DNA from: SAR86 cluster bacterium
Lineage (GTDB): Bacteria; Pseudomonadota; Gammaproteobacteria; Magnimaribacterales; AG-339-G14
NCBI GenBank assembly: GCA_023703675.1
Contig: CP097974.1
Location: forward strand, 333,288-397,287
Length of the DNA stretch: 64,000 nucleotides
Direction: 5' to 3'
Shown: piece by piece, positions 15,456 through 20,179 of the stretch
How positions within the stretch are numbered: the first letter of the stretch is position 1
Layout of the letters: the number at the start of each line of letters is the position of its first letter
The notes under the pieces: generated by a model
What the model saw: the letters and a program-made list of their open reading frames with translations, nothing else
Databases searched by the model: none
What the model was told of the DNA's origin: nothing
Made by a program: the position numbers and the translations under genes

Positions 15456-16439
15456 ATGGAATTTAAGTTTATTGAAACTAATGGAATTACTCTTCGTGCC
15501 GCAGTAGAAGGTGAAGGGCCTTTGGTGATTATGGTGCATGGATGTCCAGAGAGCTGGTTTAGTTGGAGACATCAAATTCCGGTAATCGCTGAGGCAGGAT
15601 ACAAAGTTGTTGCAATTGACGTTAGAGGTTATGGCGGTTCTGATAAACCCCACGCAATTGAAGAATACACTCTTAAGAAGTTAAGCGATGATGTTGTCGG
15701 CGTTATAGATTTTTTTGGCGAAGATAAAGCCATATTATTTGGTCATGATTGGGGTGCGCCAATAGTCTGGTACACAAGTCTTTTGAATGAGAAAAGAGTT
15801 TCGGCAGTTGCAGGGCTTTCAGTGCCTTATTTTCCTCAAGGCGATGTTTCTCCCATGGATGCTTTCGAAGCAATTTTTGAAGATAAATTTTTTTATATGA
15901 TCTATTTTCAAGAAGAGGGAGTAGCTGAATCTGAATTTGAACCAAATTTAAGAAAATATTTGGAATCAACTTACTTTTCAGCAGATGGAAGAGGTATGAA
16001 GAAACAATTTGAAAGCCCCTTTAATGTCAGTGATAAAGGGCCAGAGGCTAAGTATCTAGATAATGTTATTCAATTTGACGATTATCCAAAATGGATTAAC
16101 CATGATGAAATGAATTATCTAATTAACGAGTTCGAAAACAGTGGTATGAGAGGCCCTCTAAATAGGTATAGAGCGCAGAGAAAAGATTTTGATGATTTAA
16201 AAGCTTACAAAGATAAAAAATTAAAACAGCCTGCAGCTTTAATGGTTGGATCTTTAGATCCAGTCAATTTTTTTGTTGGCGAAGGTTACAAAGATACAGC
16301 TGATTTAAAAGCAAATTTTGATCCTGTCTATGAAAATTTAGTTTCAGTTGAATTAATTGATGATGTAGGCCATTGGACTCAACAAGAAGCTCCAAAACAA
16401 GTAAATGAATTTTTATTAAATTTTCTCAAACAGATCTAG
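15456..16439 (+). CDS. Alpha/beta hydrolase, epoxide hydrolase type
   Basis: Soluble epoxide-hydrolase-like enzyme. The oxyanion motif HGCPESWFSWR starts at residue 29, the nucleophile elbow GHDWGAP gives D98 as nucleophile (Asp, as in epoxide hydrolases and dehalogenases, not Ser), and the catalytic His is in DDVGHWTQQEAP near residue 312. A helical lid lies at about 130-240. Length 327 aa matches the family. It overlaps the convergent SbmA-like gene by 14 bp at the 3' end. Epoxide hydrolase fits better than haloalkane dehalogenase because of the HGxP form and lid length, but the substrate is unknown. Confidence 0.87.
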   Translation: MEFKFIETNGITLRAAVEGEGPLVIMVHGCPESWFSWRHQIPVIAEAGYKVVAIDVRGYGGSDKPHAIEEYTLKKLSDDVVGVIDFFGEDKAILFGHDWGAPIVWYTSLLNEKRVSAVAGLSVPYFPQGDVSPMDAFEAIFEDKFFYMIYFQEEGVAESEFEPNLRKYLESTYFSADGRGMKKQFESPFNVSDKGPEAKYLDNVIQFDDYPKWINHDEMNYLINEFENSGMRGPLNRYRAQRKDFDDLKAYKDKKLKQPAALMVGSLDPVNFFVGEGYKDTADLKANFDPVYENLVSVELIDDVGHWTQQEAPKQVNEFLLNFLKQI

Positions 16440-17481
16440 ACTCAATACTGCTTGGATTCGAAAATCTTTCCAGATTCGCCTCAAACTCATGAAGTCTTTT
16501 CCAAATACTTCTAAGTTCGGTTATTGTGGTCCAATTGAATAAAAATAATGCGAAACCACTATGAACTCTATCAAAGGCGTTAGAAATTTGTATAACCACA
16601 CCTAAAAGCGCTGCCCCAGTAAAAAGGCTAGGTCCAATAATTAGAAATGGAACAATCACCATAAATTGACCATAACTTTCAATCCATATATCGAAATATC
16701 CGTAATGTAGATAAAGTCTTTGATAATTAAATCTTATGCCAGTGAAAAGATACCAAAGGGTATCGCTTTGCGCATAATTTACTTTGTCGTCTTCTCCTAA
16801 AACAAGATCCTTTCTGAAAGCTGCCTCAACTTTCTGGTTATTGTATTCCAACCCAGGCAACTTGTATCCAACAAACCAAGAAATTACTAAGCCGCCAATA
16901 GAAACTGTAAGAGCAGTCCAAACTAGCGAACCTTCTATATTACTAAAAAATGGAATTGTAACCGATTCACTCAAACCCCAAAGCACTGGGACAAACGCAA
17001 CTAACGTCATAATAGCCCTTACAACTTGAAGTCCAAGACTCTCTACTATTCTTGCAAACCTATTGCAGTCCTCTTGAATTCTTTGGCTTGCCCCTTCAAT
17101 TTCTTCTTCAACACTTTGCCATCTAGGAATGTAATTAAAGGTAATAGCTTGTCTCCATCTTAACCCATAGATTCTGGTAAACCATGCTGTAAACGTTGCA
17201 AGCACAACATAAGGCATCGCAATAACTAAAAAACTAGGAGAGCCTTGAAATCCATTAAAGAGATAATCCGTCGAGATTAAAAAATCATAAAAAATGTCAA
17301 TTCCTTCTTGAGGATTATCAGAAAAATCTGCTGCTATTTGTAAATGATCATAGAAACCACCATACCAAGTATTTATGGCTACAGTCATTTGAACCTGCAT
17401 CCACAAAGAAGTTATGAGGAGCGCAAGACCTCCATAAGCCCAGTACGCCCATTCTCTAGTTCCATAAAATGCTCTCAACAT
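16426..17481 (-). CDS. sbmA: SbmA/BacA-like peptide transporter
   Basis: Inner-membrane transporter related to SbmA/BacA, proton-driven importers of peptides and modified antibiotics that have an ABC-type membrane domain but no ATPase domain. Membrane segments are visible at about 15-35, 85-110, 155-175, 185-205 and 270-300. The WYGGFYDHLQ stretch near the N-terminus and FTRIYGLRWRQAITFNYIPRW (split over 102-122) are characteristic. At 351 aa it is about 50 residues shorter than E. coli SbmA, mostly at the termini. No ATPase domain follows. No Shine-Dalgarno is seen. It is divergent from the COMT-like gene. Confidence 0.85.
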   Translation of the reverse strand: MLRAFYGTREWAYWAYGGLALLITSLWMQVQMTVAINTWYGGFYDHLQIAADFSDNPQEGIDIFYDFLISTDYLFNGFQGSPSFLVIAMPYVVLATFTAWFTRIYGLRWRQAITFNYIPRWQSVEEEIEGASQRIQEDCNRFARIVESLGLQVVRAIMTLVAFVPVLWGLSESVTIPFFSNIEGSLVWTALTVSIGGLVISWFVGYKLPGLEYNNQKVEAAFRKDLVLGEDDKVNYAQSDTLWYLFTGIRFNYQRLYLHYGYFDIWIESYGQFMVIVPFLIIGPSLFTGAALLGVVIQISNAFDRVHSGFALFLFNWTTITELRSIWKRLHEFEANLERFSNPSSIESRSV

Positions 17482-17528: not shown

Positions 17529-18290
17529 ATGACTAGAACTAAAGAAAAAATCAAGAAAAAGTCGAAATCTCCATTTCTGATAAATCGAAAAAGCATTTAT
17601 GGAGTTCTAGAGATAATTTTTAGCGAATTGAAAAATAGTATTTATAAGTCTATAGATAAGGAAAGTTCTAAAGAAAAAAAAGTATTGAATTATGTCAAGG
17701 AAAAAGCGATTAAAAATGATCCAGAAAGCGTTCTAAAAATTATTGATGACTGCGGTTACAATAAATTTTTTTTGATGAATATTGGAGACCATAAAGGAAA
17801 AATTCTGGACGATTACGTTTTAGAGAGCAAAGCACAAAAGATTTTAGAGTTGGGGGTTTATTTAGGTTACTCGACAATTCGAATAGCTCGAAACTTGTCT
17901 AAAAATTCTCATCTTTATTCCATAGATGCGAACAAAGATTTTCTAAAAATAGCAAAAGAACATCTAGAATTTTCTGGACTGCATGACAAAGTGACTTTTT
18001 ATAACGGTAAAGCATCAGAAGTAATACCTAGACTAAATGAAAAATTTGATTTTGTTTTTATCGACCACTGGAAAGAAGCATATCTATCCGATTTGAAACT
18101 ATTAATTGAAAATAATTGTTTGAATGATGGCGCTATAATTTTTGCTGACAACATTGTTCTTTTTCACCTTGAAGATTACTTAGAGTTTGTTCGAACAAAT
18201 CCAAATTTCGAAAGCAAATTTATTCCTACCCTAAGAGAGTATTCGAGCTCACATCCCGACGGTATTGAAGTCTCTTATTTTAGAAAATGA
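17529..18290 (+). CDS. Catechol O-methyltransferase-like SAM-dependent methyltransferase
   Basis: Class I methyltransferase of the O-methyltransferase-3 family, with unusual closeness to animal COMT. The SAM motif is LELGVYLGYS (106-115) and the acidic ribose-binding residue is D133. The metal and catalytic set D179, K182 (IDHWK), D207, N208 (ADN) and E237 lines up with rat soluble COMT D141, K144, D169, N170 and E199 at a constant offset of 38. The substrate-wall Trp38 is replaced by Phe81. The first 45 residues are a lysine-rich extension that COMT lacks. It probably methylates a catechol or similar vicinal diol. It is first in an operon; the Smr gene starts within its stop codon. The COMT comparison is from memory. 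Confidence 0.86.
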   Translation: MTRTKEKIKKKSKSPFLINRKSIYGVLEIIFSELKNSIYKSIDKESSKEKKVLNYVKEKAIKNDPESVLKIIDDCGYNKFFLMNIGDHKGKILDDYVLESKAQKILELGVYLGYSTIRIARNLSKNSHLYSIDANKDFLKIAKEHLEFSGLHDKVTFYNGKASEVIPRLNEKFDFVFIDHWKEAYLSDLKLLIENNCLNDGAIIFADNIVLFHLEDYLEFVRTNPNFESKFIPTLREYSSSHPDGIEVSYFRK

Positions 18291-18511
18291 AATTAAATTC
18301 TCTTGATCTACATGGAATAAGACATCATGAAGTTGATTTACTAGTTGAAAATTTTGTTTACCTTAATCAAGAAGATGTGCCCTTAAAAATAATTTGTGGA
18401 AATAGTCATAAAATGATTTCACTAGCAAAAGTAGTTTTGGATAGGATAGATTGTGAATATGAAGAAGGCATGGGAAATAATTATGGTTTAATCATAGTTA
18501 GGAAAATTTAA
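18287..18511 (+). CDS. Small Smr-domain protein
   Basis: A 74-aa protein that is almost only an Smr domain (MutS2/SmrA type, nucleic-acid binding or nicking). The N-terminal LDLHGIRHHEV matches the conserved LDLHG-x-x-x-x-E/Q-A motif. The usual HGKG-like motif is ICGNSHKM, a weakened version. It overlaps the methyltransferase stop by 4 bp and the next start by 1 bp. A stand-alone Smr this short may act as an RNA-binding accessory, but its role in this operon is unknown. Confidence 0.75.
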   Translation: MKLNSLDLHGIRHHEVDLLVENFVYLNQEDVPLKIICGNSHKMISLAKVVLDRIDCEYEEGMGNNYGLIIVRKI

Positions 18512-18855
18512 TGATATTGAAAGAGGTAATAGTTTTGAGCGAGAAAGGAGACTTTCTTGAAGATTTTAAAGAGGGAGAATCTTTTTCTCTAATTATAGAT
18601 TTAGTTTCCTTAAAAGCTTTAACAAAGGAAATCTTCTCATTTCAATATAAAAAATTATGGTTTTTAGTTACTTTTCTTCTCACAGCAACTTATATAAGAA
18701 ATGAATCTGGACTTTCTAAAATATATTCAAAATCAATCTTCGAAATCTATGATACTTTCGAATCCATGTCCTCTAGAGTAGAATTTGAAATAGACAATAA
18801 ACTAATCAAGAAGAAAATCTTATTGCTGTCCAACCCATTAATAAATGAAAGCTAG
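18511..18855 (+). CDS. Hypothetical protein in the COMT-dihydroorotase operon
   Basis: A 114-aa protein not matched to a family. It has one moderately hydrophobic segment (about 49-62, LWFLVTFLLTATYI) and mixed charged flanks, so it may be a soluble alpha/beta protein rather than a membrane protein. It overlaps the Smr gene by 1 bp and the dihydroorotase gene by 11 bp. Tight coupling on both sides supports it being real. Confidence 0.65.
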   Translation: MILKEVIVLSEKGDFLEDFKEGESFSLIIDLVSLKALTKEIFSFQYKKLWFLVTFLLTATYIRNESGLSKIYSKSIFEIYDTFESMSSRVEFEIDNKLIKKKILLLSNPLINES

Positions 18856-20179
18856 TCTAGTTTTAAAAAATTGTAATCTTATTAACGAAGGGGAAGTAAA
18901 AATTGTTGATATTGCTATCAAAGACGATCGAATTGAAAAAATTGCTTCTTCAATAGATTGTGAAGCATCACAAGAAGTAGATTGTTTGGGAAAATATGTT
19001 GCTCCTGGAATAATAGATGACCAAGTACATTTCAGAGATCCTGGATTAACAGAAAAAGGGGACATACGTTCTGAATCTCTTGCAGCGGTGCATGCAGGTG
19101 TTACTTCAACATTCGATATGCCTAATGTTGATCCAAATATGACAACACTAGAGTTGATGAACGAAAGAAATCAACTAGGCGCAGAAAAATCTTGGACTAA
19201 TTATTCTTACTATTTTGGTGCCACTGAAACAAATCTTGAAGAGATTAAAAAATTAGATCCCAAAGAGACTTGTGGTTTAAAAGTTTTTATGGGGACTTCA
19301 ACAGGAACATTATTAGTTGAGGATGATTTTGCGCTTGAGCAAATTTTTAAGCATTGCCCTGTAACTATTGTGACTCATTGTGAAGACAATGAAACAATGA
19401 AAAATAATTTAGAGAGAGTAAAACTTGAAAATGAAAAAATCGATGCACGTTTTCATCCTATAATTAAGGATGATATTTGTTGTTATCGTTCCTCATCGAA
19501 AGTAATTGAGCTAGCTAAAAAATATTCTTCTGACCTTCATGTATTGCACCTCACAACTGAAAAAGAAATAGCATTATTTGAAAATATTGATCTTAAAAAA
19601 AAGAAAATAACTTGCGAAGTTTGTGTACATCATCTGTGGTTCGATGAGAGGGACTATGATTCTTTAGGAAATCTTATTGTTTGTAATCCTGCTATAAAAA
19701 AAGAATCCGATAGGAATGCACTTCGACAGGCATTAAAAGATGGTTATATAGACTATGTTGCTACAGATCATGCTCCACATGTTTATGAAGATAAAAAGCT
19801 TCCATATTTGCAGGCACCTGCAGGAATTCCTCTCATAGAACATTCATTTCAAATAATGATAGAGCTGCATAAACAAGGTCATTATACTTTAGATGAAGTA
19901 ATTTCTTACATGAGTCATAGAGTAGCAGATCGATTTTCAATCATAGATAGAGGATATGTAAGAGAAGGTTATAAGGCAGACTTGATGATGTTTGATTTAG
20001 AAAAAGAGGTATCAGTATCTAACGAGACTGAATTGACAAAGTGTGGGTGGACTCCATTTGATGGAAAAACTTTTAGTTCTTCTGTAACAGGGACCATAGT
20101 CAATGGAAAAATTATTGTTCTGGACAATCAACTTGTTGCAGGTTCAACTTCAGTAGAAAAAATAACTTTCGATAGATAA
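18845..20179 (+). CDS. pyrC: Dihydroorotase (class I, amidohydrolase)
   Basis: Closes carbamoyl-aspartate to dihydroorotate in pyrimidine synthesis. It has the N-terminal metal site in GIIDDQVHFRDPGLTEKGD (about 58-76), TFDMPNV with the substrate Asn (about 95), VTHCEDNE (His ligand) and ATDHAPH (catalytic Asp, about 306). The first ligand of the usual HxH is Gln (DQVH), a form I recall from a bacterial subclass of this enzyme, so it need not be inactive. Length 444 aa is typical of class I. It starts inside the previous gene and the amidase ATG follows 1 nt after its stop. Dihydropyrimidinase or allantoinase are alternatives. Confidence 0.88.
   Translation: MKASLVLKNCNLINEGEVKIVDIAIKDDRIEKIASSIDCEASQEVDCLGKYVAPGIIDDQVHFRDPGLTEKGDIRSESLAAVHAGVTSTFDMPNVDPNMTTLELMNERNQLGAEKSWTNYSYYFGATETNLEEIKKLDPKETCGLKVFMGTSTGTLLVEDDFALEQIFKHCPVTIVTHCEDNETMKNNLERVKLENEKIDARFHPIIKDDICCYRSSSKVIELAKKYSSDLHVLHLTTEKEIALFENIDLKKKKITCEVCVHHLWFDERDYDSLGNLIVCNPAIKKESDRNALRQALKDGYIDYVATDHAPHVYEDKKLPYLQAPAGIPLIEHSFQIMIELHKQGHYTLDEVISYMSHRVADRFSIIDRGYVREGYKADLMMFDLEKEVSVSNETELTKCGWTPFDGKTFSSSVTGTIVNGKIIVLDNQLVAGSTSVEKITFDR

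Follow-up and report, generated by a model that had tools for sequence, protein, structure and literature searches.

The locus

The window, by which we mean the whole 64,000-nucleotide stretch of DNA under analysis, belongs to a SAR86 cluster bacterium whose genome is a single contig of 1.19 Mb. The gene that concerns us encodes a protein of the catechol O-methyltransferase (COMT) lineage, an enzyme best known for the inactivation of catecholamines. The position of the reading frame, on the + strand, is as a sequence-only reading had given it, and the marine host it proposed is confirmed, the closest relatives being SAR86 cluster bacteria, 97% identical within AG-339-G14, the GTDB family that has been named RedeBAC7D11 (PMC11582366). 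The window's family is probably this one, given the 97% match and the count of four genera in each. The start codon is kept across these relatives. Ahead of the COMT domain sits an N-terminal extension of about 44 residues that soluble rat COMT lacks. Its hydrophobic moment is moderate, and we saw no clear transmembrane segment in it. A membrane anchor, as in membrane-bound COMT, was considered and set aside because the helix is of low confidence and only moderately amphipathic.

Table 1. Features at and around the COMT gene, in window coordinates
Feature	Position	Strand	Basis or remark
SbmA/BacA-like peptide transporter (PRK12369 type)	16426..17481	-	
COMT-lineage SAM/Mg-dependent catechol O-methyltransferase, 253 aa	17529..18290	+	ORF, search, tree, alignment, fold; activity predicted
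N-terminal extension, ~44 residues ahead of COMT domain; basic; one low-confidence helix (residues 23-42)	17529..17660	+	
FLMNIGDHKGK motif: F81 (rat W38), M83 (M40), N84, K89 (K46)	17769..17801	+	Alignment to rat COMT
SAM-binding motif LELGVYLGYS (rat LELGAYCGYS; E64, G66, Y68, S72 retained)	17844..17873	+	Alignment
IDHWK: D179 (Mg), H180, W181, K182 (general base)	18060..18074	+	Alignment
ADNIVLF: D207 and N208 (Mg), L211 (rat V173), F212 (rat P174, altered)	18144..18164	+	Alignment
REY: R236 (rat L198, altered), E237 (E199), Y238 (Y200)	18234..18242	+	Alignment
Smr-like protein, 74 aa; ATG overlaps COMT stop codon (ATGA)	18287..18511	+	Name from sequence reading
ORF, 114 aa	18511..18855	+	
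Dihydroorotase (pyrC; PRK09236 type), conserved downstream neighbor	18845..20179	+	

In relatives of the window's family the Smr-like gene immediately follows COMT, and the order COMT, Smr-like gene, pyrC is kept in all four genera while the remaining neighbors vary. The transporter gene and COMT are divergently arranged in some members of the family, not in all genera. The 114-residue ORF between the Smr-like gene and pyrC is fast-changing, recognizable in part of the family only, and has no match in Pfam or NCBIfam. None of the Smr, pyrC and SbmA-like neighbors points to catechols. We had looked to operon logic as a clue to a catechol role and abandoned it, since the Smr and pyrC neighbors are conserved yet uninformative on that score.

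Family identity

Among solved structures, the best matches of the protein are rat and human COMT (E values from 1.6e-44 to 1e-40). The phmmer match to rat COMT, at 1.6e-44, is far beyond chance and corresponds to 39% identity over 206 residues. Next comes Schizosaccharomyces pombe COMT (5e-26), and caffeoyl-CoA-type enzymes do not appear until 6.7e-14. In a maximum-likelihood tree of 35 proteins, SAR86, animal and actinobacterial (mycobacterial) COMT make up one clade with support of 100/98; caffeoyl-CoA-type enzymes lie outside it, as does a group of alpha- and gammaproteobacterial proteins that carry a DLWK motif. In approximately unbiased (AU) tests of the branching inside the COMT clade, neither a clade of SAR86 and animal COMT alone (p 0.136) nor one that also takes in a second SAR86 family (p 0.335) was rejected, so the SAR86 enzyme need not be specially "animal-like" among bacterial COMTs.

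The fold tells the same story. An AlphaFold2 model, made from an alignment of the window protein and its relatives' loci with the rat sequence left out, has a mean pLDDT of 85 (residues 1-22 and 38-44 fall below 50) and superposes on rat COMT with a Z score of 35.3, at 0.8 A over 208 residues. The corresponding Z is 26.6 for S. pombe COMT and 24.0 for the best non-COMT structure. The SAR86 gene product truly belongs to the COMT lineage: its closest sequence relatives and its clade are COMTs, the fold is shared across the whole catalytic domain, and the magnesium triad (rat D141/D169/N170), the base (K144) and E199 all have their counterparts in the alignment. The sequence-only reading had favored COMT and would have yielded to a closer kinship with caffeoyl-CoA-type enzymes; best solved matches, tree and fold agree on COMT. 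That the protein is instead a caffeoyl-CoA-type O-methyltransferase resembling COMT only at its metal site strikes us as barely credible: the two types do have Pfam family PF01596 and an overall fold class in common (Z about 23-24), but the sequence match is thirty orders of magnitude weaker than to COMT, the clade is separate and supported, and the SAR86 protein retains the DHWK motif and a COMT-type C terminus, so that searches and tree together rule it out.

The DLWK-motif proteins deserve a word in their own right. Alphaproteobacterial plasmid relatives with this motif (L082 2353-3525; L084 2000-3501) cluster by themselves close to COMT; in two cases a gene for a PadR-family regulator, a type of regulator responsive to phenolic acids, lies immediately alongside.

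Active site and acceptor wall

Rat Pro174 is the gatekeeper of the acceptor pocket and Leu198 part of its wall. In rat COMT, magnesium is held by D141, D169 and N170, K144 deprotonates the hydroxyl nearest SAM and E199 holds the other hydroxyl (PMC4770447; PMC5001633). The alignment bears out the correspondence that had been drawn from sequence: D179, K182, D207, N208 and E237 match rat D141, K144, D169, N170 and E199 at a constant offset of 38, the N-terminal half runs at an offset of 43 (F81/W38, M83/M40, G109/G66), and a 5-residue deletion lies between the two. The SAR86 protein thus retains the magnesium triad (D179, D207, N208), the base K182, E237 and most of the SAM-contacting residues.

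The claim that the active site is complete, and that Trp38 to Phe is the sole change near the substrate, fared less well. Three positions of the acceptor wall are changed, not one: W38 is F81, P174 is F212 and L198 is R236. Of the wall made up of W38, W143, P174 and L198 in the animal enzyme, W143 alone is kept. Further substitutions place D133 at rat E90, A134 at M91 and L211 at V173. The stretch from rat D141 to E199 aligns without a gap, which makes the assignments at P174 and L198 firm. The W38F, P174F and L198R changes occur together in every distinct protein we read from the window's SAR86 family, in all four genera. In a protein from a second SAR86 family (L074) these positions read F, L and L, and the actinobacterial COMTs we tabulated have I, F or M at W38, P at P174, and V or M at L198. 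Since positions 38 and 198 vary in mycobacterial COMTs too, the wall change bears on substrate, not on lineage. Docking has rat Leu198 contacting the substrate site (PMC8780549), and from this and the gap-free alignment we infer that R236 would point into the pocket.

Distribution and history of the gene

Of 40 genomes from the window's SAR86 family, 36 have COMT, one copy each; the four without it are 70-90% complete. Between close SAR86 copies dN/dS (NG86) is about 0.04-0.07, which means strong purifying selection. Beyond the family, the gene soon runs out. Across the order (199 genomes) there is just one further COMT, which belongs to family f183 and lies at another locus. Two genomes exceeded 100 bits in our sample of the class, both from the window's family, and no genome in our sample of the phylum passed 1e-27 other than the window's own. 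In the samples searched, then, COMT is almost absent from Gammaproteobacteria outside this family. Within the phylum of Mycobacteroides, 5 of 246 genomes passed 1e-30. Our genome samples were drawn from Pseudomonadota and Actinomycetota, with other phyla covered by one pattern-based scan and eukaryotes through solved structures; in these samples, bacterial members of the animal-type COMT clade look rare. Carriage by viruses was also considered and dropped, the patterns we used finding no COMT relative in viral contigs.

A genome of family f183 that lacks COMT (G408) gives a glimpse of the locus's history. There a TauD-like dioxygenase gene comes between the Smr gene and pyrC, and the expected COMT site is occupied by an amidohydrolase gene, beside a large metalloprotease-like gene similar to one that flanks COMT at another locus (L090). 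The names Smr, TauD, amidohydrolase and metalloprotease come from reading the sequences. This arrangement implies that COMT was either gained at this site or lost from it. The sole COMT in the SAR86 order outside the window's family (L097 3442-4182) lies elsewhere and is without the Phe212 and Arg236 changes; the different locus and the missing wall changes suggest a relocation or a separate gain.

Proposed chemistry and substrate

With the catalytic residues all kept, we would expect the enzyme to methylate a catechol. On the model of known COMT chemistry, magnesium would bind both catechol hydroxyls, K182 would take a proton and the methyl group of SAM would move to that oxygen, with E237 holding the second hydroxyl. 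Rat K144A retains some activity (PMC4770447), so the lysine is helpful rather than essential.

We think it likely, taking the explanation as a whole, that this is a Mg/SAM-dependent catechol O-methyltransferase sharing its lineage with animal COMT, that its substrate is a smaller or anionic catechol, and that methylation serves as capping. We are less sure of the substrate than of the chemistry. The wall (W38F, P174F, L198R in the whole family) speaks against a catecholamine, and the fixed arginine in place of Leu198, together with the change of Trp38 to Phe, suggests that anionic catechols are preferred, R236 perhaps holding a carboxylate. Protocatechuate, caffeate, dihydroxyphenylacetate or a siderophore fragment would be candidates. 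There is a precedent for a basic pocket residue reading an acidic substrate: rat W38R reverses regioselectivity on catechol acids to favor para-methylation, an effect ascribed to its salt bridge to the carboxylate, and mutants at W38 generally move acids toward para (PMC4770447). A bolder version, which we hold only tentatively and would not bet on, is a SAR86-specific COMT subfamily that recognizes catechol acids by their carboxylate, through the arginine at rat Leu198, and caps these acids, possibly para-selectively, which would make it a hitherto undescribed sink for catechols in the sea.

The same altered wall could mean something else. COMT-derived though it is, the enzyme might have shifted to another acceptor, such as a catechol-like steroid, some other ortho-dihydroxy metabolite or even a non-catechol; three fixed changes in the wall would allow it, and breakdown of steroids and polycyclic compounds is reported in SAR86 (PMC11582366). 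We judge this unlikely, because the residues for bidentate binding and deprotonation of a catechol are all kept and because W38 and L198 vary in mycobacterial COMTs also.

Metabolic role

What would a SAR86 bacterium gain from methylating catechols? Of all the parts of our favored explanation the answer to this is the weakest, and we offer it with low certainty. Methylation may cap imported catechols, halting redox cycling or iron binding, without feeding ring cleavage. SAR86 is reported to be rich in TonB receptors annotated for catecholates (PMC11582366), which counts in favor of our explanation as a whole; the case for capping rests on absences.

The opposite view, that the enzyme prepares or diverts catechols toward ring cleavage as a step in aromatic catabolism, draws on reports of salicylate hydroxylase and catechol 2,3-dioxygenase annotations in SAR86 (PMC11582366). 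Such a role in aromatic breakdown, one of those floated by the sequence-only reading, is unsupported: we found neither an intradiol dioxygenase nor a LigB-type dioxygenase in the window's genome, none of the 40 family genomes scored over the cut-off of the curated catechol 2,3-dioxygenase model TIGR03211 (best 36 bits against 320), and methylation would in any case shield a catechol from cleavage. We consider it improbable. With ring-cleaving dioxygenases absent or below cut-off, capping is favored over breakdown, though catechols could still be cleaved by dioxygenases of a different type, other vicinal-oxygen-chelate proteins being one example. As an observation in passing, catechol 2,3-dioxygenase annotations (catE/gloA) are reported as near-universal in SAR86 (PMC11582366), and TIGR03211 does not bear them out in the window's family.

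Nor is the enzyme at all likely to stand in for UbiG in ubiquinone synthesis: the intermediates in question are indeed catechols and one streamlined family has COMT as a near-core gene, but UbiG lies over its curated cut-off in the window's own genome (G000:C1:197511-198164) and, across the order, in 176 of 199 genomes, whether or not they carry COMT, so an absence of UbiG where COMT is present, which replacement would entail, is not what we see.

Comparison with known systems

The main SAR86 genome study makes no mention of methyltransferases (PMC11582366). Elsewhere, late gene transfer from bacteria has been proposed to have had a role in the origin of animal genes of this kind, in a study that covered COMT (Iyer et al. 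2004, as relayed in PMC10244343). A near-core COMT in a SAR86 family means that the enzyme is useful in the open ocean, where there is no nervous system. In these abundant, streamlined bacteria the machinery is as in animals and the pocket is consistently changed; the acceptor is probably some other, perhaps acidic, catechol of seawater. The fixed pocket changes also allow the determinants of COMT specificity to be tested directly.

SAM-dependent methylation of catechols is known in bacteria (PMC11143566). The catechol methyltransferases of Streptomyces avermitilis and Desulfuromonas acetoxidans, from the caffeoyl-CoA branch, have a related fold (Z about 23), a far weaker match than COMT, and the caffeoyl-CoA-type proteins we sampled form another clade, without the DHWK motif. 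S. pombe COMT (5ZY5/5ZY6) has the COMT fold (Z 26, E 5e-26) and is more distant than mammalian COMT. Closer to home, mycobacterial comparative genomics has used catechol O-methyltransferase activity as an annotation term (PMC3388012), so bacterial COMT-like proteins were already known and what SAR86 adds is a distinctive acceptor pocket. The COMT-like proteins of Mycobacteroides (L014, L019) and other Actinomycetota (L077-L080) belong to the COMT clade and share the magnesium triad and the counterparts of K144 and E199. Unlike the SAR86 enzyme, to which they are about 31% identical, they keep P174 and have I, F or M at W38 and V or M at L198, and some have DHDK or DHEK in place of DHWK. Mammalian COMT (rat and human; PDB 1VID and 3BWM) shares with the SAR86 enzyme, at about 39% identity, the fold, the magnesium triad, K144, E199, W143, H142, Y68, M40 and the SAM motif. 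Against this common ground, the SAR86 enzyme differs by W38F, P174F, L198R, E90D and M91A, by a 5-residue deletion before the IDHWK strand and by its 44-residue N-terminal extension.
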